From Methanomassiliicoccales archaeon (GTDB taxonomy: Archaea > Thermoplasmatota > Thermoplasmata > Sysuiplasmatales > Sysuiplasmataceae): a stretch of DNA of 10,857 nucleotides. A program made the position numbers and the translations under genes. Position 1 is the stretch's first letter, and each line of letters starts with the position of its first letter. The stretch is taken from positions 1 to 10,857 of the forward strand of contig DAHXLZ010000343.1 of NCBI GenBank assembly GCA_027365715.1, in the 5' to 3' direction. Below the pieces are notes generated by a model. It did not search any database and was not told where the DNA came from. It was given only the letters and a program-made list of their open reading frames with translations. Below are positions 1-10,857 of the stretch, in pieces.

Positions 1-1272
1 GCCATTGCCGAACTGAATCCCTGGTGGAAGGGGGACTTCAGACTGGAATACAGACGACGTTCCATATATTCAGACATGGAGCGTCTTATGGAGCAGCCAC
101 AAATCATAGCACTGACGGGATTGAGGAGGACAGGGAAAACAACGCTGATGATGAAGATAATCAGCGATAAACTGAAATCAGGCACAGACCCGCTTGACAT
201 GCTGTATTTCTCCTTTGACGAGTTCACCGAATTCGATATCAGAGATCTCATTTCCGCCTATGAACATATGACATCAAGGAGGCTTGGCGAAGGCAGGAAA
301 ATTTTGCTTCTTGACGAAATACAGAAACTCAGGAACTGGAATTCCATGATTAAGAGCCTTTATGACAGGTACAAGGGCTCTGTCAAGATCGTCGTGTCGG
401 GCTCAGAATCTCTGAACATCATGAAAAATGCAAGAGAGACACTCGGGGGAAGGTTATTCCAGTTGACTGTTACGCCGCTCTCCTTCAGGGAGTTTCTTGA
501 CTTCAGGAGTCTGAAATTTGAACCGCCTGACCTGTATCATAAGGAACTTCTCTCTCAGTACAGCGAGTACCTGACCACTCAGGGCTTTCCAGAGCTCGTG
601 GGTGTTTCGGACAGGTATGTGATAAGAAAGTATCTGAAGGAAAGCATCGTTGAAAAGATCTTGTTCCATGATATGACGGTCATAGCAAAAATTTCGGACG
701 TCGGTGTGTTGGAATCTATCGTCAGTATGATGATGTCGAGACCGGGGCAGATTGTGGAACTTGTAACCCTGTCCAGGCAGATCGGCGTATCAAGACAGAC
801 ACTGGCCAGATATCTGAAATACCTGGAACAGTCGTTCATATTGCGGAAGCTGTACAATTATTCGGGTTCAGTCAGAAAGATCGAAAGAAAACTTAAGAAG
901 TATTATCCAGCGATTGTCTCTCCTGACCTGACGTACAGCACAGGCGATCTTGAAAGGTCTCAGGTGTTTGAAACATCCATCGTTAATCAACTGCGACCGG
1001 AATATTTCTGGCGCGATCCGTACAAGAATGAAGTCGATATGGTTCTGCAGAACTCCGGACCGGTGCCGGTTGAAATCAGGATGCATAATTGGAATCCGGC
1101 AGGAGTTCTCAAATTCATGCAGAAGTTCAATGTCACAAAGGGGTACATAGTTACCGCGGATGTGGAAAATCATTTTGAGCGCGGAAGCTTCAGCGTAGAA
1201 ATTCAGCATGCGTTCAGGTTTCTCATGAACAGGCAGGCTGAAACCGCCGATGTGGGCGGTAGAGAAACATAG
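1..1272 (+). CDS. AAA-family ATPase with DUF4143-type C-terminus, 5' end cut by the window
   Basis: The frame is already open at base 1 and encodes an N-terminal segment containing LNPWW, a motif usual just before the P-loop in this family, so the first in-frame ATG at 76 is probably not the start. Walker A (GLRRTGKT) lies at 118-141 and Walker B (LLLDEIQ) at 304-324. A sensor-like VSGSES follows, then the family's PLSFREFL motif. A winged-helix-like segment (VELVTLSRQIGVSRQTLARY) is encoded at about 754-815. The C-terminal part resembles a restriction-endonuclease-like fold, with NEVDMVLQ near 1027-1050 and VEIRM at 1069-1083. In most relatives the second motif reads VEVK, so the lysine is Arg here. 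These ATPases are abundant in archaea and their physiological role is mostly unknown; a link to mobile elements or toxin-like systems is often suggested but cannot be shown here. Family call is firm, function is not. Confidence 0.88.
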   Translation, partial: AIAELNPWWKGDFRLEYRRRSIYSDMERLMEQPQIIALTGLRRTGKTTLMMKIISDKLKSGTDPLDMLYFSFDEFTEFDIRDLISAYEHMTSRRLGEGRKILLLDEIQKLRNWNSMIKSLYDRYKGSVKIVVSGSESLNIMKNARETLGGRLFQLTVTPLSFREFLDFRSLKFEPPDLYHKELLSQYSEYLTTQGFPELVGVSDRYVIRKYLKESIVEKILFHDMTVIAKISDVGVLESIVSMMMSRPGQIVELVTLSRQIGVSRQTLARYLKYLEQSFILRKLYNYSGSVRKIERKLKKYYPAIVSPDLTYSTGDLERSQVFETSIVNQLRPEYFWRDPYKNEVDMVLQNSGPVPVEIRMHNWNPAGVLKFMQKFNVTKGYIVTADVENHFERGSFSVEIQHAFRFLMNRQAETADVGGRET

Positions 1273-1600
1273 GCGTTCAACCCGACGGATGGAAACGCAT
1301 GAGAGGTGGCCATCAGGATTGGCGAAGTGCTGCAGACAAATTCAGCGCTTTCTGAGAATCATCACAGAATGGCGTTTCCATAATTAATTGGCTCATGAGG
1401 CATTGTTCCCCAAGCTGCCGGCCCTTAACGCTTGACGAGCATAAAGTGCATAATGGTAAAACCAGCAAAGGCATTGCAGTCTCCGAACTGACATGGTACT
1501 GATGGTTAACAAAGCCACAAGATCTCTTGCCTGCAGTATATCAGGCACTATGCCTGCCATCTATCTGAAACCATAGGCGTGCACGAACTCGCCATACCTG
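1273..1600. other. Intergenic stretch without a recognisable gene
   Basis: About 330 bp between the ATPase stop and the csaA terminator. All frames are broken by frequent stops. The longest short frames, such as one of 27 codons at 1493-1576 (+), have no SD and match nothing I recognise. A loose inverted repeat GCGTT/AACGC (1273-1277 and 1294-1298, 16-nt loop) follows the ATPase stop directly. One + frame around 1440-1500 reads like a decayed protein remnant (HNGKTSKGIAVSEL), but it is too short to assign. Confidence 0.5.
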
Positions 1601-1617
1601 AAATTAAATCAAAAAAT
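1601..1617 (-). terminator. Poly-T terminator downstream of csaA
   Basis: On the minus strand, 15-31 nt after the csaA stop, the sequence is a run of six T followed by GATTTAATTT. Archaeal RNA polymerase terminates at such U-rich tracts without needing a hairpin. It would end the leftward csaA transcript, possibly the whole leftward gene group. The tract is clear; its use is inferred. Confidence 0.55.
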
Positions 1618-1631
1618 GAAGCGTATGCGGT

Positions 1632-1970
1632 TCATGCAATTCTGAGACCGGGTTCAACGTCCTGATCAGGGTGCAGCAGTATGACTTTGCCATCTCCGAC
1701 AGGTACGCCAAGAACCAGAACCTCCGATATGAAATTGGCTATCTGTCTCGGTTTAAAGTTGACGACAGCAACCACATTCCTCCCTACGAGGTCCTCCGGG
1801 CTGTAAAGGGACGTAATCTGTGCGCTGCTCTTTTTGACGCCAAGCGGTCCAAAATCTATTACCAGTTTGTAGGATGGTTTTCTCGCTTCAGGAAAGGCAG
1901 TCGCTTCAAGCACTTTTCCGGTCCGGATGTCCACCGACCTGAAATCCTCAGGCTCAATTTCATCTGTCAT
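1632..1970 (-). CDS. csaA: CsaA-type tRNA-binding (OB-fold) protein
   Basis: A 112-residue protein that is essentially a single EMAP-II/Arc1p-like tRNA-binding OB domain, matching the usual CsaA length of about 110. Family signatures run the full length: EDFRSVDIRTGKVLEA near the start, FPEARKPSYKLVIDFGPLG, the hallmark KKSSAQIT, then VVAVVNFKPRQIANFISEVL and a C-terminal LLHPDQDVEPG. CsaA is a homodimer proposed to be an export-related chaperone in Bacillus, while structural work points to tRNA binding; its cellular role remains unsettled. The ATG at 1970 is chosen because the conserved domain begins about nine residues later. An in-frame GTG at 1991 would add only MCVPCFH. No clear SD precedes the ATG, so a leaderless or weakly initiated message is possible. 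It is the last of three leftward genes. Confidence 0.93.
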   Translation of the reverse strand: MTDEIEPEDFRSVDIRTGKVLEATAFPEARKPSYKLVIDFGPLGVKKSSAQITSLYSPEDLVGRNVVAVVNFKPRQIANFISEVLVLGVPVGDGKVILLHPDQDVEPGLRIA

Positions 1971-1995
1971 ATGAAAACATGGAACACACACCGAT

Positions 1996-2017
1996 ACTTC
2001 AAGAATTCTTCAGAAGT
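1996..2017. promoter_or_regulatory. Inverted repeat upstream of csaA
   Basis: ACTTC at 1996-2000 is matched by GAAGT at 2013-2017, and a perfect 10-bp palindrome AAGAATTCTT (2001-2010) lies between them. The element sits 26-47 bp upstream of the csaA ATG, where a promoter or operator is expected. No good TATA box overlaps it. It could be an operator or chance symmetry. Confidence 0.3.
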
Positions 2018-2050
2018 GCTTACTCCACAATAACAGCGGAAACTGAAGTT

Positions 2051-2194
2051 TCAGCACTCATAATATGCTGAACCGCATGCACAGTGATAGAGAACTCTGA
2101 TAACCTTGCTTTGCAATTCAATATGACGTTTCATTTCACTTCCGCAAAATCTGCATGTCAGGTAAAGGCTTCCCGGAACCGCTCCAGCTGCCAT
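2051..2194 (-). CDS. Small zinc-ribbon-like protein (47 aa)
   Basis: The predicted 47-residue product has a CRFCGS knuckle (C14, C17) and, 20 residues later, HCACGS (C38, C40), ending on a further cysteine (C47). Paired CxxC/CxC spacing around a short beta-like segment is typical of a rubredoxin or zinc-ribbon metal site. No named family is recognised. ATG 2194 is preferred because a longer form would need a TTG at 2251 and would add an uncharacteristic basic stretch. It follows the HesB-like gene by 101 nt on the same strand. The stretch between contains pyrimidine-rich runs, so co-transcription is uncertain. Its metal-site character beside an Fe-S carrier is suggestive only. Being so short, it could be a spurious frame, although the cysteine pattern argues against that. 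Confidence 0.6.
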   Translation of the reverse strand: MAAGAVPGSLYLTCRFCGSEMKRHIELQSKVIRVLYHCACGSAYYEC

Positions 2195-2295
2195 AGCGCC
2201 CTGTTTGGATATAATCCTGAGCACACGCTGTATTGAGCGAATAAAACACAAAGAGAATAAGGAGAGTTTGAAAACGACTGTAGAGCGTCAGTTGA

Positions 2296-2652
2296 TTACG
2301 ATCCGCAGCCGCATCCGCAACCGCCGCCGCCGCAACTGCAGCCTTCGCCATTGCTGACCCTGGCGTTTGGGTTGTTTATCGTAAAGCCGCCGCCTTCGAT
2401 TGACTCCACATAGTCAATTTCGGTGCCTTCGAGATGGTCTGCGCTTTCCCTGTCAACGACTATCTTCACTCCGTTCTGTTCAAGCTGAATGTCCTGTGAA
2501 GGATCGGCCTTTTCATCGAATGACATTCCGTACCTGAAACCGTGCTCTGCGGCTGTAAGGTATACCCTGAGAAGCAGGTCTTTGTTATCCTGCTGAGCAA
2601 TCAGCGACCTGACCTTGTCACCGGCCTTTTCAGTCAATATGAGACTGACCAT
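2296..2652 (-). CDS. HesB/IscA-like A-type iron-sulfur carrier, variant with Cys-rich tail
   Basis: The 118 residues align along their length with E. coli IscA/ErpA-type proteins: an N-terminal LTEKAGDKVRSLI helix, central GVKIVVDRES, and FTINNPN before the tail. A-type carriers hold an Fe-S cluster with three cysteines, one in a GGCSGF motif and two in a C-terminal CGC. Here the first motif reads TAAEHGFRYGM, so the first cysteine is replaced by Glu36 (next to His37). The C-terminal pair is present as C105-S-C107 and is followed by a Gly-rich tail with C112, C114 and C116. Metal binding is therefore likely, but the ligand set must differ from IscA. ATG 2652 is supported by AGGTG a few bases upstream and by a promoter at the expected distance. 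It is transcribed divergently from the GH31 gene. Confidence 0.85.
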   Translation of the reverse strand: MVSLILTEKAGDKVRSLIAQQDNKDLLLRVYLTAAEHGFRYGMSFDEKADPSQDIQLEQNGVKIVVDRESADHLEGTEIDYVESIEGGGFTINNPNARVSNGEGCSCGGGGCGCGCGS

Positions 2653-2685
2653 TTTACTGCACCTTACCGTTCGATTGAGATTGAA

Positions 2686-2695
2686 CTATTTAAGC
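2686..2695 (-). promoter_or_regulatory. Archaeal TATA box for the HesB-like gene
   Basis: Read on the minus strand this is GCTTAAATAG, close to the archaeal TATA consensus. Its centre is about 38 bp upstream of the ATG at 2652. Transcription starting about 26 bp downstream of the box would give a leader of about 12-15 nt that holds the SD-like AAGGTG (about 2659-2664). The geometry is good and supports both the start choice and an archaeal host. Confidence 0.6.
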
Positions 2696-2730
2696 ATTGA
2701 GTGACTGTATGCGCGAATTAGGCTGCAATG

Positions 2731-2749
2731 GCCACCGTCTCATTGTGGC
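2731..2749. promoter_or_regulatory. Small inverted repeat in the divergent promoter region
   Basis: GCCAC (2731-2735) and GTGGC (2745-2749) flank a 9-nt spacer between the divergent HesB-like and GH31 genes. It might be an operator or a weak hairpin. A 5-bp arm is short enough to be chance. Confidence 0.22.
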
Positions 2750-2792
2750 TGGTCAGATGGAAACCGGAGTGAGGTTATTATGGAGGTAGAAT

Positions 2793-2837
2793 ATGCCGGG
2801 GAGCATAAAAGCACACCGGGATGATGATAACAGTTGA
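2793..2837 (+). CDS. Possible 14-codon leader ORF upstream of GH31
   Basis: ATG 2793 is preceded at 5-nt spacing by GGAGGT (2782-2787), the best SD in the window. The frame encodes MPGSIKAHRDDDNS and stops at TGA 2835-2837. That stop overlaps the TTG (2834-2836) where the GH31 frame begins, giving a TTGA junction like the ATGA overlaps used for translational coupling. Either this is a short leader peptide that delivers ribosomes to the TTG, or a one-base change or sequencing error has split the true GH31 N-terminus from its ATG. Confidence 0.4.
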   Translation: MPGSIKAHRDDDNS

Positions 2838-5041
2838 CCGACAGAAGAAAGCGGAGCGGGAAAGAGAAGTCGAAAGTATTTGGTTTCGAGACAGATCAGA
2901 AAGTTCATGTTCTGATTGAGATGTCCGGTGTTGACAAGAATACATTAAAGATGTCAATCAGGCGTTCTGCTGAAAAGCTGTTACGGTCCGGTGTATCAAC
3001 AGCCTCACTTGGCACTTTCAGGGTTGACGCTTCGCCGAAACCACCGGCACTCTCTGTTTCATTCAAGGGCAGGACTCTGTTCAGCGTTGTGACAAACCCC
3101 CCGCCTGGAAAGAGAGGATATCCGACCAGGCTTTCTGTTTCCGATGGCAGCATGACCATTCCATTTGAAATATCAGAGGATGAGGGGATATATGGTCTTG
3201 GCGAATTCTTTGGTGACATAAACAGAAACGGGCACGAACTCACGGTAAACGTGAAAGATGCTTTTACGCTACCCAATGACGAGACGTATGTCACATACCC
3301 TTTCTTCTGGAGCACAAGGGGTTATGGCATATTTGTCAATACAACGTCGGCGGTCAGATTCGATTTCGGGCGAAATTTCAAAGGTACCGGTGACATAGAT
3401 ATTGAAGAGGGCGAAGCGGACATCTACATCTTCCAGGGCAGGCCGGAAGAGATTATTGATGCTTACTGGCGCCTCACAGGCAGGCCGTCAATTCCTCCTT
3501 TATGGTCGTATGGCCTCTGGATGAGCCGCTGCTCATACAGGAATGAGAAGGAGCTGCTAAGCATAGCCGGGAAAATCAGAAGGAAGGGACTGCCATGCGA
3601 TGTGCTGCACCTGGACCCTGACTGGCTCAGGCGGCCCATACCGTACAGCATCACAGAGATGCTGAAGGGCAAGGGAGTTGACCCTTCGTCCTATGGCGAC
3701 AATTACGGCATACCGGGTGTGGTACTGGACAGAGTTTCCAGAGACTATCCTGAAGAAATGAAGAACATGGGATTTCCGGGTGAGGGATGCACGTTTGAAT
3801 GGAATACTGAGCTCTTTCCCGACCCTGAGGGAATGATCAGAAAGCTGCATGACATGTCGTTTCGCCTTTCGCTATGGATTAACCCGTATGTTCCCAGAGG
3901 GTCAAAGGCGTTTGAATATCTTCTTGAAAGAGGTCTGTTTGTCAGTGACAGCAGCGGGGTTCCAATAGCTGAATTTGACAGGGTCACTCATGATTTCGGC
4001 ACCGTGGACTTCACCAATCCGGACGCCAGACAGTGGTATGCGGACAACATCAGAAAGTTGTGTGATCAGGGAGTGGACATATTCAAGACAGATTACGGCG
4101 AAGGAGCACCCCGGGCAGGCGGGTATTATGGTCTTGAGGGCAGGAAAGCCCACAATGCCCTTCCCACACTCTACAATGAAACAGTCTTCAATGCAGTGAA
4201 GGAAAAAAAGGGGGAGGGCATCGTCTGGGGCAGATCTGGAGGTTTGGGCATACACAGATTTCCGCTGCAGTGGGGAGGTGACCCTTCCTGCACATCAAGG
4301 GATATGTATGCTTCGCTCAGGGGAGCTCTTTCCTATTCGCTCTCGGGCGGTGCGTTCATGAGTTTTGACATAGGCGGTTTTGCCGGTGAGCCCGACCCTG
4401 AGCTCTATGCGAGATGGTCACAGATGGGATTGCTGTTTTCACATTCCAGGGCACATGGTACGACACCCAGGGAGCCATGGAATTTCGGCAGAAGAGCTGA
4501 GGCCATATTCACTGAGTACGACATACTGAGGTATTCACTCATACCATACCTCTACTGGCAGTCGGTAAAATCGGTAAGTGAGGGAAAGCCGCTTGTCAGA
4601 GCTCTCGTGTTCGAGTTCCCGGAGGATGCGTTCGTCAGGAGCATACAGGACGAATACATGCTCGGCGAAACCCTTCTCATAGCGCCGCTTGCACGCGGAG
4701 AGGAGAGAACCATTTACCTTCCGGATGGGGTATGGCAGGATTTCTGGACAGGCAGAAAGTTGCAGGGTCCGTCGCTGGTAGAGTACACTGCACCACTGGA
4801 AGTGATTCCGGTATTCGTCAGGCGCAACTGCATAATTGTACGGTCTGACAGTAAAGCTGAGAATGCAGATGAGAAGCTGTTCAGCAAAATGACCGTTAGC
4901 ATTTATGGCAGCAGCAGGCTGCGCGAGCTGAACTTCGGCAGATACGGTTCCATCATATTGCGTTCAAAGAGAGGGAAGCTTGAAGCCTCCGGAAAAGGAC
5001 TTCTTTCAGAGTCGAAGATTTCTGTGAGAGTCATCAGATAG
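2834..5041 (+). CDS. GH31 alpha-xylosidase / alpha-glucosidase (YicI/XylS-like)
   Basis: A 735-residue glycoside hydrolase family 31 enzyme with an N-terminal beta-sandwich (about 1-215), a TIM barrel starting at IPPLWSYGLWMSR (about 220-590) and C-terminal beta domains. The nucleophile is D420 in IFKTDYGEG; KTD(F/Y)GE marks the alpha-xylosidase YicI/XylS branch, whereas alpha-glucosidases usually have a WxDMNE motif. The acid/base is D483 in QWGGD, followed by MSFDIGGF and SHSRAHG as in YicI. Expected activity is removal of terminal alpha-xylose or alpha-glucose. About 45 residues are inserted between HLDPDWL (258-265) and CTFEWN (319-324) compared with E. coli YicI. There is no signal peptide, so it is probably cytoplasmic. 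TTG 2834 is the first possible start, since an in-frame TAA lies at 2828-2830. It lacks its own SD and may be coupled to the leader ORF. It lies 66 nt before treY. Substrate is inferred from motifs only. Confidence 0.92.
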   Translation: MTDRRKRSGKEKSKVFGFETDQKVHVLIEMSGVDKNTLKMSIRRSAEKLLRSGVSTASLGTFRVDASPKPPALSVSFKGRTLFSVVTNPPPGKRGYPTRLSVSDGSMTIPFEISEDEGIYGLGEFFGDINRNGHELTVNVKDAFTLPNDETYVTYPFFWSTRGYGIFVNTTSAVRFDFGRNFKGTGDIDIEEGEADIYIFQGRPEEIIDAYWRLTGRPSIPPLWSYGLWMSRCSYRNEKELLSIAGKIRRKGLPCDVLHLDPDWLRRPIPYSITEMLKGKGVDPSSYGDNYGIPGVVLDRVSRDYPEEMKNMGFPGEGCTFEWNTELFPDPEGMIRKLHDMSFRLSLWINPYVPRGSKAFEYLLERGLFVSDSSGVPIAEFDRVTHDFGTVDFTNPDARQWYADNIRKLCDQGVDIFKTDYGEGAPRAGGYYGLEGRKAHNALPTLYNETVFNAVKEKKGEGIVWGRSGGLGIHRFPLQWGGDPSCTSRDMYASLRGALSYSLSGGAFMSFDIGGFAGEPDPELYARWSQMGLLFSHSRAHGTTPREPWNFGRRAEAIFTEYDILRYSLIPYLYWQSVKSVSEGKPLVRALVFEFPEDAFVRSIQDEYMLGETLLIAPLARGEERTIYLPDGVWQDFWTGRKLQGPSLVEYTAPLEVIPVFVRRNCIIVRSDSKAENADEKLFSKMTVSIYGSSRLRELNFGRYGSIILRSKRGKLEASGKGLLSESKISVRVIR

Positions 5042-5052
5042 ACAACTATTCG

Positions 5053-5059
5053 AATATAC
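5053..5059 (+). promoter_or_regulatory. Weak TATA-like element before treY
   Basis: AATATAC in the 66-nt gap between the GH31 gene and treY could place a transcript start near 5080, upstream of every candidate treY start codon. The match is modest, and read-through from the GH31 gene is equally plausible. Confidence 0.25.
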
Positions 5060-5093
5060 GCTCTGCAGCATCCGCTTCAACGCACTCACTGTG

Positions 5094-5109
5094 AAGAGTT
5101 TGCACTCTT
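5094..5109 (+). promoter_or_regulatory. Hairpin covering the most upstream treY start codon
   Basis: AAGAGT (5094-5099) pairs with ACTCTT (5104-5109) around a TTGC loop. The 3' arm includes two bases of the TTG at 5108. This argues against TTG 5108 as an efficient start, or would impede it if it is used. There is no T-run after it, so it is not an obvious terminator. Confidence 0.3.
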
Positions 5110-7945
5110 GCAGCAGATGAGAGCCGAAGCGTGTCGGCCTGTTCTGTCAAGACTAATTACGATGAACTGTGTAAGGGACGGTGTGCATGACAAAAAACAG
5201 GAAAGTGTAACAGCCCGTACGGGCTGTAATGCGGGGCGCAAAATTGTTTCCACCTACAGGCTGCAGTTCACCCCTCAATTTACGTTCAGGGACGCAATGG
5301 TGGTTATAGACTGCCTGAAAGAACTTGGAGCGACAGCAATCTACTCTTCGCCAATCTTCGAGGCGAGACAGGGAAGCGGACATGGTTATGACGTCACAGA
5401 TTCTTCAAAAATCAGACACGAGTTTGGCACGCTGGAAGAATTCACGGCACTGTCAGAAGCTGTGCATCTGGCCGGCATGAGCTGGCTGCAGGGGATTGTG
5501 CCAAATCACATGGCGTTTGACCGCAGCAACAGACTTCTGAGAGATGTTCTCGAGAATGGCCGGTCCTCCGCCTGCAGCGGCTGCTTCGACATCGACTGGG
5601 ACCATTATTCCCCGGGACTCAGTGGAAAGGTTGCTGCTCCTTTTCTGGGATCAGGTTATTATGAAGCGCTTGTAAAACACGAACTGAAGCTTGTTGTGGA
5701 TGATGGTGTCATGGTTGACTACCACGGCTTCAGGCTTCCCCTTTCTGCAGCGACCCACAGAAACTTGCTCGACGATATAAACGCGTTCATGCCTTCCGGA
5801 GATGCTGTTGCGCCTTCTGAATTCACAGGATCCGGCAATGACAGCTCTGTCAGCGCGGTTGAAATATTCAGGAAACTGATCTCGAACAGGAGATTTGAAC
5901 GAAGCGCCAGGCAGGCTGTTTCCGAAATCAACAGAAATGTCGAGAAGGTTGATGCAATACTGTCGGAGCAGCATTTCCTGCTTCGATGGCATGGCAGCGC
6001 GTCACATGAAATCAACTACCGGCGGTTCTTCGCCGTCAATGACCTCATTGCCGTGAGGGTGGAGGAGCCGTCAGTGTTCGCTGAATTGCACAGCCTCACG
6101 GGTGAGCTTGTCAGGAAGGGGCTCATCGACGGTGTCAGGATAGACCACATTGACGGCCTCTCTGATCCGGCGGAATATCTTCGCAGATTGAGAGAGCTGA
6201 CAGGTGATTGCTATGTTGCTGTAGAGAAGATCACGTGCGGGAACGAGCGCCTGAGAAGGAAATGGCCAGTGGAGGGTTCTACAGGATATGACTTCATGAG
6301 CTGGACAAACTCATTGTTTGTGATGCCGGAAAGCAGCGAGCCAATGACAGACACATACAGGAAATTTACGGGATACTCCGGAAGCATTGATGAAAATGTG
6401 GTTAAAACAAAGAGGAAGGTTGTGCGGACCCTGCTGGACGGGGATGCCGCAAATGTTTCACTCATGCTGCTTCGCTCCATGAAGGACAGGAAGTACGGGA
6501 GAGATATCACACTGAGGAGGCTGCAGGAAGCTGTAATTGAACTCCTGGCACATATGGCGGTTTACAGGACCTATTTCAGCAGGGGCTCTTACGATGAAGA
6601 GGACGTCGTGAGATTCAGAGAAACGGTGAAGAGCGCTTCAGAGGCCGCGCCGGAACTGAAGACCGAACTGAACGCCCTGCTCTCACTGATGAATGATGCC
6701 GCAACGGACACATCGCTCCGGATTCCGCTCATGCGGCTGCAGCAGCTTATGCCTGCGGCTATGGCAAAATCCGTTGAGGACACATTCTTCTTCAATTACA
6801 ACGCACTTGTCTCGCTGAACGAAGTGGGCTCAGATCCCAGGGAGTTCGGTCTGATGTCCATGGAGTTCCATGACAGAATCGCTGAACGGTTCAGGCAATG
6901 GCCGCATTCCATGAACAGCACGTCAACGCATGACACAAAAATGGGTGAGGACCTCAGATGCAGAATCAGCGTGCTGTCTGAAATACCGGAGGACTGGGAA
7001 AGGAATGTCCTGAGCTGGAGAGCAGCCAATAACAGATACAGAAAAAAACTGAAATCAGGATTGTGCCCGACACCCGGCGATGAATACTACATCTATCAGA
7101 TTATTCTCGGCTCTAGGCCTCCTGAAGGGAGCGGGAGGGAGTGGAGGAAGAGGCTGAAAGCGCACATGGTGAAATACATGAGAGAAGGCGGCACGAGTAC
7201 TTCATGGGAAAAACCTGACCTGGCATATGAATCGGGCTGCCTGCAGTTCATTGAAAAGATGCTTTCGCCCGGAAACAATCATTTCACGAAATCCTTTGAC
7301 CGCATGCAGCGCAAAGTTTCATTTCATGGCTTCCTGAATTCGATGTCAATGGTAACACTCAAAATCATGTGTCCCGGTGTTCCAGATACCTACCAGGGTT
7401 CGGAGAGCTGGAATTTCAGCTTTGTGGATCCGGACAACAGGAGGCCCGTTGACTTTAATTCACTGAAGGAGCGCCTGCAGCGTTTAAGCAGCAGAGTGGA
7501 TGGTCATACCGCAGCCGAACTTGCCGCCCGGTTCCAGGACGGTGCTGTGAAGACATATCTCACACGACTGCTTCTGAGATTGAGAAGGCAGGAGAGCGAC
7601 CTGTTCATGGACGGTGAATACATTCCACTGAAGACAGCGGGAGCGGGAAAGAACAATATCGTGTCGTTTGCCAGGAAGCTTGGAGAGAAATGCGCTGTTG
7701 TATCGGTCCCCCGTTACACAACCGGGCTGACCGGAGAGGGAAGAAGGAGCCTCTGGCAGGGGAGCTGGAACAGCACTATTGTGCTCCTGCCTGCAGGCTT
7801 CCCCTCAGGGTTCAGTGACATATTTACCGGCAGGAAACTCAGCACAGGGAAGAAGAATTCGGCAAAAACCCTCATGGTCAGAGATGTTCTGGTCGACTTT
7901 CCGGTCTCGGTGCTTGTCTCGGGGATAGATTACAGGAACGGCTGA
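5108..7945 (+). CDS. treY: Maltooligosyl trehalose synthase (GH13)
   Basis: TreY isomerises the reducing-end alpha-1,4 bond of a malto-oligosaccharide to alpha,alpha-1,1, making maltooligosyl trehalose. Numbering from TTG 5108, the conserved domain begins at KIVSTYRLQF (about residue 44). The fold-specific motif EINYRRFF is present, as are the catalytic residues D346 (RIDHIDGL), E373 (VAVEKI) and D609 (STSTHDTK). VPDTYQGSE and VDPDNRRPVDF close the barrel. At up to 945 residues it is longer than Sulfolobus TreY (about 720) and nearer to long bacterial forms. The start is uncertain: TTG 5108 (within a hairpin), ATG 5117, ATG 5162 and GTG 5183 are in frame, and none has a good SD. The first 43 residues look unlike any conserved part of the family and contain an 18-bp palindrome. 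treZ follows after 15 nt, so the pair is almost certainly co-transcribed. Confidence 0.96.
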   Translation: MQQMRAEACRPVLSRLITMNCVRDGVHDKKQESVTARTGCNAGRKIVSTYRLQFTPQFTFRDAMVVIDCLKELGATAIYSSPIFEARQGSGHGYDVTDSSKIRHEFGTLEEFTALSEAVHLAGMSWLQGIVPNHMAFDRSNRLLRDVLENGRSSACSGCFDIDWDHYSPGLSGKVAAPFLGSGYYEALVKHELKLVVDDGVMVDYHGFRLPLSAATHRNLLDDINAFMPSGDAVAPSEFTGSGNDSSVSAVEIFRKLISNRRFERSARQAVSEINRNVEKVDAILSEQHFLLRWHGSASHEINYRRFFAVNDLIAVRVEEPSVFAELHSLTGELVRKGLIDGVRIDHIDGLSDPAEYLRRLRELTGDCYVAVEKITCGNERLRRKWPVEGSTGYDFMSWTNSLFVMPESSEPMTDTYRKFTGYSGSIDENVVKTKRKVVRTLLDGDAANVSLMLLRSMKDRKYGRDITLRRLQEAVIELLAHMAVYRTYFSRGSYDEEDVVRFRETVKSASEAAPELKTELNALLSLMNDAATDTSLRIPLMRLQQLMPAAMAKSVEDTFFFNYNALVSLNEVGSDPREFGLMSMEFHDRIAERFRQWPHSMNSTSTHDTKMGEDLRCRISVLSEIPEDWERNVLSWRAANNRYRKKLKSGLCPTPGDEYYIYQIILGSRPPEGSGREWRKRLKAHMVKYMREGGTSTSWEKPDLAYESGCLQFIEKMLSPGNNHFTKSFDRMQRKVSFHGFLNSMSMVTLKIMCPGVPDTYQGSESWNFSFVDPDNRRPVDFNSLKERLQRLSSRVDGHTAAELAARFQDGAVKTYLTRLLLRLRRQESDLFMDGEYIPLKTAGAGKNNIVSFARKLGEKCAVVSVPRYTTGLTGEGRRSLWQGSWNSTIVLLPAGFPSGFSDIFTGRKLSTGKKNSAKTLMVRDVLVDFPVSVLVSGIDYRNG
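5210..5227. repeat. Perfect 18-bp palindrome near the treY start
   Basis: ACAGCCCGTACGGGCTGT is its own reverse complement; the flanking bases break the symmetry. In RNA it folds into a 7-bp GC-rich stem with a GUAC loop. It lies 27 nt after GTG 5183 and about 27 nt before the codons for the conserved STYRLQF segment. It could be a protein-binding operator, an RNA structure damping treY translation, or a chance symmetry in a non-conserved N-terminus. Confidence 0.6.
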
Positions 7946-7948
7946 AGA

Positions 7949-7954
7949 TGGTGA
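7949..7954 (+). promoter_or_regulatory. Shine-Dalgarno sequence of treZ
   Basis: GGTGAT sits 6 nt before ATG 7961 and matches part of the archaeal/bacterial anti-SD complement. It begins 4 nt after the treY stop and fixes the treZ start. Confidence 0.6.
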
Positions 7955-7960
7955 TTCTAT

Positions 7961-9724
7961 ATGGATTTCGATGACCTGACAATCGGTGCGGAACTGGTCG
8001 ACGGCAGTAATGCCGCCTTCAGGATATGGGCGCCGGGGAAGAAGGAAGTTGTGCTGCGGCTCGGGGAAGGCAGAAAGGTGCCGATGGAAAGAGAGGAAAG
8101 AGGCTTCTGGAAATGCTCCGCCGCACTGAAAAACACAATGAGATACGGCTATGAAATCGACGGGGAGGGACCCTTTCCCGACCCTGCCTCCAGATGCCAG
8201 CCCGATGGTGTGCACGGACTCTCGAAAATTGTTGACACCACCGGATGGATGGGAGGCGATGACGGATGGAAGGGCATTGCGCTGGGCGATTACGTGATTA
8301 TGGAAATGCACGTGGGCACATTCACCAGGAATGGCACATTCTCTGCGGTGGAGGAGAAGCTTGATTATCTTGCAGACCTCGGCATCACTGCACTCGAACT
8401 CATGCCGGTCGCGCAGTTCTACGGAAGCAGGAACTGGGGCTATGACGGAGTGTACATCTACGCGCCGCAAAACAGTTACGGCAGCCCGGAAGAACTGAGA
8501 CATCTGGTGAATGCAGCACATTCGAGAAAAATGGCCGTCGTGCTCGACGTCGTCTACAACCACATCGGACCTGTCGGGAACTACCTGCCCAGGTACGGAC
8601 CGTTTTTCAGCGACAGGTACAGAACACCATGGGGAACAGGACTGAATTATGACGGACCCGGTTGCGATCCTGTGAGAGAATTTGTGCTCTCAAACGCAGT
8701 ATACTGGATGGAACAGTACAGGTTTGATGCACTCAGGCTCGACGCAATACACGGAATACTTGACAGTTCGCCGAAACATCTGCTCAGGGAAATGGCTGAA
8801 AGGGTCGATGCACTGTCGGCTAAAACGGGCAGGAGGCTGCATCTGATTGCAGAGAGCGATCTCAATGATCCGAAGGTTGTCAGGGCGCGTGATAATTGCG
8901 GTTATGGCATTTCAGCACAGTGGAATGATGACTTCCACCATTCCATTCATACAGTGCTTACAGGCGAACTCGGCGGTTATTACGAGGATTACGGCAGTGC
9001 CGGCTGCATTCTGAAGGCAATGAAAGACGGTTTTGTTTATGATGGTGCATACTCGAAGCACCTTGCAAGGAGGAGAGGTTCATCTTTTGCCGGCATGCCG
9101 CGGGAGAAGCTTGTCGTTTTTTCACAGAATCATGACCAGACCGGCAACAGGGCACACGGCGACAGGCTGAGTGTGCTCGTGCCGCCGGAAAAGCTGCGGT
9201 TTGCTGCCGGCGCGGTTCTGCTGTCTCCGTTCACCCCGATGCTCTTCATGGGGGAGGAGTACGCAGAAGAGGCACCGTTTCTCTTTTTCATAGATACGGA
9301 TGACAGGAACTTCGCAAACACCGTCTACGAAGGGAGGAAGAAGGAGTTTGAACGGTTCCACTGGAAGGACACACCTGAGCCGAACAGCCCCGAAACATTC
9401 GAGCGGACAAAACTCAGATGGAACACGGCAGATGAGAAACCGTGTCAGATGATTCGGCTTTACCGCGACCTTCTCGCACTGAGGAAGAAATACGTACTGA
9501 CACTCAGAAATGATTTCAAATGCAGCATGCACGACGGCATCATGCTTCTGGAATACGGCGGAATGATGAGAGCGCGATTCAACCTTTCAGGGACAAATGC
9601 GCGCGCTGCACTTGAAGGGCAGTGGAATATTGAGCTGAATTCGGAGTGGAAAGAGTATGGGGGCAGCTGCAACAGGACTGACTCAGAACTCATGCCCTTT
9701 TCATTCACTGTTGCCGTTCACTGA
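7961..9724 (+). CDS. treZ: Malto-oligosyltrehalose trehalohydrolase (GH13)
   Basis: TreZ hydrolyses the alpha-1,4 bond next to the trehalose unit of maltooligosyl trehalose, releasing trehalose. The 587-residue protein has an N-terminal E-set/CBM48-like domain (AAFRIWAPGKKEVVLRLGE, within the first 100 residues). The barrel starts with the family motif VIMEMHVGTFT. GH13 regions follow in order: VVLDVVYNHIGP, nucleophile D261 in LRLDAIHGI, acid/base E298 in LIAESDLND, and D392 in SQNHDQTGN. PFTPMLFMGEEYAEEAPFLFF is a TreZ/branching-enzyme signature. Its length is close to Sulfolobus TreZ (about 560). ATG 7961 is supported by the GGTGAT SD and by the domain beginning within about ten residues. 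It completes the TreY reaction and is in one operon with treY. Its 3' end overlaps that of treX, on the other strand, by 7 bp. Confidence 0.97.
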   Translation: MDFDDLTIGAELVDGSNAAFRIWAPGKKEVVLRLGEGRKVPMEREERGFWKCSAALKNTMRYGYEIDGEGPFPDPASRCQPDGVHGLSKIVDTTGWMGGDDGWKGIALGDYVIMEMHVGTFTRNGTFSAVEEKLDYLADLGITALELMPVAQFYGSRNWGYDGVYIYAPQNSYGSPEELRHLVNAAHSRKMAVVLDVVYNHIGPVGNYLPRYGPFFSDRYRTPWGTGLNYDGPGCDPVREFVLSNAVYWMEQYRFDALRLDAIHGILDSSPKHLLREMAERVDALSAKTGRRLHLIAESDLNDPKVVRARDNCGYGISAQWNDDFHHSIHTVLTGELGGYYEDYGSAGCILKAMKDGFVYDGAYSKHLARRRGSSFAGMPREKLVVFSQNHDQTGNRAHGDRLSVLVPPEKLRFAAGAVLLSPFTPMLFMGEEYAEEAPFLFFIDTDDRNFANTVYEGRKKEFERFHWKDTPEPNSPETFERTKLRWNTADEKPCQMIRLYRDLLALRKKYVLTLRNDFKCSMHDGIMLLEYGGMMRARFNLSGTNARAALEGQWNIELNSEWKEYGGSCNRTDSELMPFSFTVAVH

Positions 9725-10758
9725 TTTCTATTTCCCCTCAGTATGGCGGCTCCGCCTGCATTCACTGTGAGCTTCTTCCAGTCCATAGGAACAGGATAAC
9801 GGTGCTGATTAGCCTCCTCAGAATCTATCAGTATTTCCTGTGACGACCAGTCTGCCGGAATGGTAAATTCCACCGGCGTCCTTTCGGGATTGAACAGCAG
9901 CATGAGATCATCCTCCAGCACCTCTTCGCCCTCATACCCGATGTCCTCAATCCCCCTTCCGTAGAGCAGTGCGGCTATCGCAGTGGTCCCCGAATTCCAC
10001 GCTTCCCGGCCCAGTTCGCTGCCGTCCGGTTTCATCCAGATTATGTCCTTGATCAGTGTTCCGGGCATCGCGGCACCCCTGAAAAACTTTCTTCTGCGCA
10101 GAACATGGTATTTCAGCCTCAGGTGTATCATCCGCTTTGTGAAATCCAGCAGCTTTCTGCTCTCTTCATCCATATTCCAGCTGTACCAGCTGATTTCGTT
10201 GTCCTGACAGTATGCGTTGTTGTTTCCCTTCTGTGTCCTGCCGATCTCATCGCCGCCGAGCATCATCGGAACACCCTGAGAGGTGAGCAGTGTTATCAGA
10301 AAACTTCTCATCCTCCTCTGCCTCATGACATTTATTTTCGGATCGTCAGAGGGACCTTCGGTGCCAAAACTCTCACTGATGTTGTCATCCGTGCCATCCC
10401 TGCTTTCCTCCAGATTGACCTCGTTGTGCTTTCTGCTGTAGCTGACGAGGTCATGCAGTGTGAAGCCGTCATGGGCGGTGACGTAATTGATGCTTGCATT
10501 TGGCCTCCTTCCGTCGTTTTCATACAGGTCCTGGGAGCCGGAGATGCGCGTCGCAAATTCACCAAGGCTGTTGAAGTCGTGCCTCCAGTAATGCCTCACG
10601 GCATCCCTGTATTTGCCGTTCCATTCGGCCCAGAGGATAGGGAAGCGGCCAACCTGATATCCGCCGGGACCGACGTCCCATGGCTCGGCAATGAGTTTGA
10701 CGCGTGATATCACCGGATCCTGATGTATAACATCAAAAAACGACGATAGCCTTTCAAC
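9718..10758 (-). CDS. treX: Glycogen debranching enzyme, C-terminal half only (5' part lost at a junction)
   Basis: TreX/GlgX-type isoamylases cut alpha-1,6 branches of glycogen and supply linear oligosaccharides to TreY. The minus frame is open from 10758 and reads [11 protein letters not shown], then [20 protein letters not shown]. This holds the acid/base Glu (codon 10684-10686). Next come [20 protein letters not shown] with the third catalytic Asp (codon 10468-10470), [20 protein letters not shown], and a C-terminal beta domain ending at TGA 9720-9718. These 346 residues correspond to the second half of a protein of about 700. Region I and the nucleophile Asp are absent because coding similarity stops at 10758, where an inverted copy of treX begins. 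GTG 10713 is not a true start, since the family match continues upstream of it. The gene itself is probably intact in the organism. Confidence 0.93.
10118..10216. repeat. Arm 1 of a 99-bp perfect inverted repeat (inside treX)
   Basis: This is the native copy, coding on the minus strand for the treX stretch that includes [19 protein letters not shown]. Its reverse complement occurs without a mismatch at 10759-10857. The arms are separated by 542 bp. Confidence 0.97.
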
Positions 10759-10857
10759 CGCATACTGTCAGGACAACGAAATCAGCTGGTACAGCTGGAA
10801 TATGGATGAAGAGAGCAGAAAGCTGCTGGATTTCACAAAGCGGATGATACACCTGAG
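10759..10857 (+). repeat. Arm 2 of the 99-bp inverted repeat: misplaced treX fragment, probable fold-back chimera
   Basis: Every base equals the reverse complement of 10118-10216, and the match continues to the last base of the window, so the full arm may be longer. Read on the plus strand it encodes [15 protein letters not shown] and [12 protein letters not shown], the same residues encoded on the minus strand at arm 1. It replaces the sequence that should encode the N-terminal half of TreX. Abrupt family similarity on both sides of 10758/10759 and 100% identity point to an inverted chimera of the kind formed in multiple-displacement amplification or at misassembled contig ends. A real inverted duplication is possible but less likely. 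Confidence 0.9.

Follow-up and report, generated by a model that had tools for sequence, protein, structure and literature searches.

The window analyzed here is a stretch of 10,857 nucleotides from Methanomassiliicoccales archaeon (contig DAHXLZ010000343.1, family Sysuiplasmataceae). From left to right it carries an ATPase gene, csaA, an IscA/ErpA-like gene and a glycoside hydrolase family 31 (GH31) gene, followed by three genes of trehalose metabolism (Table 1). As in the known treY-treZ-treX trehalose cluster, treY and treZ adjoin treX. The minus strand at the right end encodes the C-terminal half of a TreX/GlgX debranching enzyme, which matches TIGR02100 (415 bits, profile positions 355 to 666 of 688) and the solved GlgX/TreX structures 7u39 and 2vnc. 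In contrast to TreX/GlgX of known clusters, its N-terminal half falls beyond the end of the contig. None of the seven proteins scanned matched a transposase family, and the window had no match in Rfam or tRNA scans.

Table 1. Genes and features of the window, with their coordinates
Feature	Position	Strand	Basis or remark
AAA/DUF4143 ATPase gene	76-1272		Frame open at left edge
csaA	1632-1991	-	
IscA/ErpA-like gene	2296-2652	-	
Glycoside hydrolase family 31 gene (alpha-glucosidase/alpha-xylosidase-like)	2834-5041	+	PF01055; NCBIfam matches under their cut-offs
treY, malto-oligosyltrehalose synthase	5108-7945	+	TIGR02401, 837.8 bits (cut-off 498.65)
treZ, malto-oligosyltrehalose trehalohydrolase	7961-9724	+	TIGR02402, 690.7 bits (cut-off 538.8)
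treX (glgX), C-terminal half, cut off by contig end	9718-10758	-	TIGR02100; convergent with treZ
Original treX segment, source of the copy	10118-10216	-	Exact inverted match to 10759-10857; on the artefact reading, the 99-mer node at which the assembly graph branches
Loop between the arms, 542 nt of ordinary treX coding sequence	10217-10758	-	Continuous TreX similarity
Probable shared overlap (microhomology, 6 to 7 nt), fold-back junction	10759-10765	.	Codons 10764-10759 encode Tyr-Ala, shared with 5 of 8 family genomes; overlap judged from relatives
Fold-back copy, 99 nt, up to contig end; should stay unannotated	10759-10857	+	Exact match, contig end, graph model

The last bases of the window are an inverted copy of a piece of treX. 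An earlier reading of the DNA made from its letters alone (the sequence-only reading) had described a perfect 99-bp reverse complement with a 542-bp spacer, and an exact recount bears this out at 99 of 99 nt, the copied arm showing no divergence over its whole length. Exact inverted matches reached at most 12 to 18 nt in 30 random sequences generated by a first-order Markov model with the window's length and dinucleotide make-up, and a chance origin of the 99-nt arms is therefore excluded. The same reading had noted that the repeat was still matching when the window ended and had proposed checking for a contig end. The observation is true and can now be refined: the protein database puts the truncated treX product, P0121, on a contig of 10857 bases, so the window is apparently the complete contig, and the repeat matches up to the window edge because the contig apparently ends there. 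The overlap thus reaches the contig end, as a de Bruijn contig-end overlap would, while a terminal-copy scan of the left contig end found nothing comparable. To say that treX is "interrupted", as the sequence-only reading did, overstates the case, since the contig merely ends 99 nt beyond the fold and the window does not include the N-terminal half of treX. P0121 itself, a 331-aa open reading frame from a GTG at 10713, arises from the false end and has a made-up start; its database entry is said to stand for two member sequences on one contig.

The treX gene of related genomes was uninterrupted in every case. Each of the eight family genomes gave one match, in open reading frames 706 to 746 aa long and free of internal stops, and the junction seen in the window was absent from all eight; a real duplication thus has no independent occurrence among these relatives. 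A 34-mer spanning the junction had no match in IMG/VR, which is a virus collection and hence a weak test. The sequence-only reading had also suggested looking for full-length treX beside treZ in related genomes, and such an arrangement was found: genome G007 has the gene order of the window (treX, treZ, treY, GH31, iscA, csaA) with treX intact, and treY and treZ likewise adjoin treX in G004, G008, G009, and G003. The nearest relatives are uncultured Thermoplasmata, namely Thermoplasmata archaeon WH2.bin25 (genome G001, locus L001) and G007, each 83% identical to the window in the TreX tail. No species-level relative or near-identical full-length TreX occurred among the best 120 of 7999 matches, where the highest identity to the window's tail was 83.3%, and a fragment search (best 120 of 7302) returned the window's own protein and otherwise identities of 72% or less. 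Judging from these relatives, treX is probably intact in the window's own population.

The surroundings of treX in these genomes offer some further observations. The interval between the GH31 gene and treX is occupied by treY and treZ in both the window (5041-9724) and G007 (L107, 9669-16570). In L001 the GH31 gene and treX lie tail to tail at 4865-4901 with their ends overlapping, and no full-length TreZ-like match was found in G001, a MAG that is possibly incomplete. These arrangements suggest that treY and treZ were gained or lost together. Along the cluster, the window's identity to G007 varies (TreZ, 91%; TreY, 85%; TreX tail, 83%; GH31, 76%). Two TreZ-like genes with full-length matches, 51% and 49% identical to TreZ of the window, are present in G003 (L003; contigs C17 and C27).

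Comparison with the relatives also bears on where exactly the break lies. The sequence-only reading held that TreX similarity runs unbroken to the codon at 10758-10756 and then stops. The first part stands, but the similarity may continue for another 6 to 7 nt: the two codons just past the reported break (10764-10759; TAT GCG, Tyr-Ala) also fit treX. Across the break the window reads Tyr-Ala-Val-Glu, and G007 reads Leu-Tyr-Ala-Val-Glu. Tyr-Ala is found at this position in five of the eight family genomes (G002, G004, G005, G006, and G007) and in five homologues among the best 120 of 7999, and the DNA of G004 equals that of the window for ten bases across the junction (10755-10764). The remaining family genomes have Tyr-Asp (G001) or Tyr-Glu (G008 and G009), and the Tyr-Asp of G001 counts against a shared overlap, this being the nearest relative beside G007. 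As a chance level, 64 of the 4096 possible hexamers encode any of the 12 dipeptides seen at the break. On the codons of the relatives, the position of the break is ambiguous by about 6 to 7 nt, and because their treX also fits the next two codons, the joined strands probably share 6 to 7 nt at the junction.

The length of the copy was examined with a compacted de Bruijn graph of both strands, built from window positions 1 to 10758 plus a fold-back molecule made up of pieces of the window. At k = 99, the graph contained a loop edge of 740 nt whose first and last 99 bases were reverse complements of each other; the path through the left arm and this loop was identical to the window. Other values of k gave paths of 10813 (k = 55), 10835 (k = 77), and 10885 nt (k = 127). 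The inner edge of the repeat (10216/10217) is the point at which two graph paths diverge. The agreement at k = 99 is a consistency test and no proof, being partly a matter of construction in that any repeat of length L fits k = L; its weight comes from 99 being a standard value and from the repeat ending at the contig end. According to the COBRA paper, contigs overlap at their ends by maxK for metaSPAdes and MEGAHIT and by maxK-1 for IDBA_UD, and its simulations include settings giving 99-bp end overlaps (PMC10914622). The overlap in the window resembles those described there in being exact, in lying at a contig end, and in having a length, 99, that is named for common settings of metaSPAdes, MEGAHIT, and IDBA_UD. 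It differs in that the contig here overlaps with its own reverse strand, a case that the paper's passages on such overlaps do not describe, and neither "inverted" nor "palindrom" occurs in its main text (PMC10914622).

Contig ends of this kind were rare in a control set. Among 177 control contig ends (95 contigs), each compared with the adjacent stretch of up to 20 kb, none carried an inverted terminal copy of at least 30 nt; what was found was one inverted copy of 29 nt and two direct copies, of 127 and 25 nt. The 95 contigs comprised 71 plus 24 whole contigs, L104 having been removed because it and L001 are one contig; L107 to L111 were left out, as were those loci of the 24-contig source that reach one contig end only. 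A control on viral contigs was dropped because a search of IMG/VR with a 16-base pattern yielded 7 stretches, too few for the purpose. When 96 loci and the window were looked at separately, most of their ends not being contig ends, only the window had an inverted terminal copy. Rarity of this sort is neutral between an artefact and a real event. At its left end, L165 (G006, contig C20) carries a direct copy of 127 nt that matches an internal stretch exactly; this is probably a graph overlap at k = 127, produced in the same way but with a different k.

We consider it very likely, judging from the contig sequence, that the inverted copy is an in vitro fold-back chimera at the contig end, with no mutation of treX, and that the organism probably has an ordinary treX. 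While the DNA was being amplified or made into a library, a 3' end within treX, near 10758-10765, would have become detached, paired through 6 to 7 complementary bases with the opposite strand at a distance of 542 nt, and been extended there. We infer phi29 multiple displacement amplification (MDA) to be the likeliest amplification step. If the true continuation was represented by few reads or none in the assembler's input, the contig would have been carried through the fold, and a de Bruijn assembler with a node length of 99 could then have re-entered node 10118-10216 in reverse and stopped. We propose that the copy is exactly 99 nt long and sits at the contig end because the assembler stopped at this re-entered node. 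A chimera combined with such a one-k-mer cut would account for the inversion, the nearness of the two segments, the short overlap, the exact identity, the 99 nt, and the position at the contig end. The sequence-only reading had likewise seen here the signature of a fold-back chimera, and it is supported by the k = 99 geometry at the contig end, the probable short overlap, and uninterrupted treX in all eight family genomes. Its caution that neither the treX truncation nor the sequence to the right of 10758 should be trusted is favoured on the same evidence, with the boundary shifted by perhaps 6 to 7 nt.

Chimeras formed during MDA offer a comparison. Lasken and Stockwell (2007) found 406 of 475 MDA chimeras to be inverted, and 337 of the 406 joined segments less than 10 kb apart (PMC1855051). 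Inverted MDA chimeras are further described as having overlaps that peak at 7 nt, with more than 95% between 3 and 13 nt, and distances mainly below 5 kb with a peak at 80 to 280 nt (PMC5372508). Like these, the second segment in the window is inverted and lies less than 10 kb away, at a spacing of 542 nt (PMC1855051, PMC5372508). At the junction, the relatives' codons suggest a probable overlap of 6 to 7 nt, which would lie at the published peak (PMC5372508). The spacing falls outside the 80- to 280-nt peak but inside the main range below 5 kb (PMC5372508). Unlike the chimeras of those studies, the one proposed here is known as a contig and not as reads.

An alternative hypothesis is that the duplication is real: strand switching by a replication fork inside treX, as in tandem inversion duplications or origin-dependent inverted-repeat amplification, would have produced a palindromic duplication in vivo and disrupted this copy of the gene. 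When replication switches strands at short inverted repeats, the resulting junction is locally the same as that of the in vitro reaction, and the sequence of the window is compatible with such an origin. The absence of divergence over 99 nt does not discriminate either, as a recent real duplication would look alike. Against an event in vivo, treX is uninterrupted in all eight family genomes, the syntenic G007 included, and a real duplication does not explain why the contig should stop exactly 99 nt beyond the junction, unless the k = 99 effect also acts. An inverted duplication that inactivates treX therefore finds no positive support, and we regard it as highly improbable.

A still smaller likelihood attaches to a pure software misjoin, in which no chimeric molecule ever existed. 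Assemblers do make contig-end overlaps of one k-mer (PMC10914622), and very short overlaps could conceivably be joined during scaffolding or gap closing. The native strands, however, probably share only 6 to 7 nt, which is below a k of 21 or more and too short for an assembler to have joined alone, and a chimeric molecule bearing the junction must therefore, we infer, have been read. Two other origins of the inverted arms were considered and rejected. A hairpin telomere of a linear replicon would have a short loop, but here 542 nt of ordinary treX coding sequence lie between the arms; a mobile element or functional inverted repeat was set aside because both arms are treX coding sequence, the seven proteins scanned matched no transposase family, and the Rfam and tRNA scans found nothing.

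With the fold-back chimera as the preferred reading, the inverted copy is very probably an ordinary laboratory artefact that says little about the living cell. It does carry a warning, in that the false-end protein P0121 is already in the protein database and could pass for the product of a pseudogene. An exact inverted terminal copy of one k-mer length is a simple means of flagging fold-back chimeras among public contigs. There is a very slim chance that a Thermoplasmata population carries a genuine fold-back duplication in treX, formed by strand switching at a 6- to 7-nt inverted repeat; were it real, it would capture inverted amplification under way in an uncultured archaeon.
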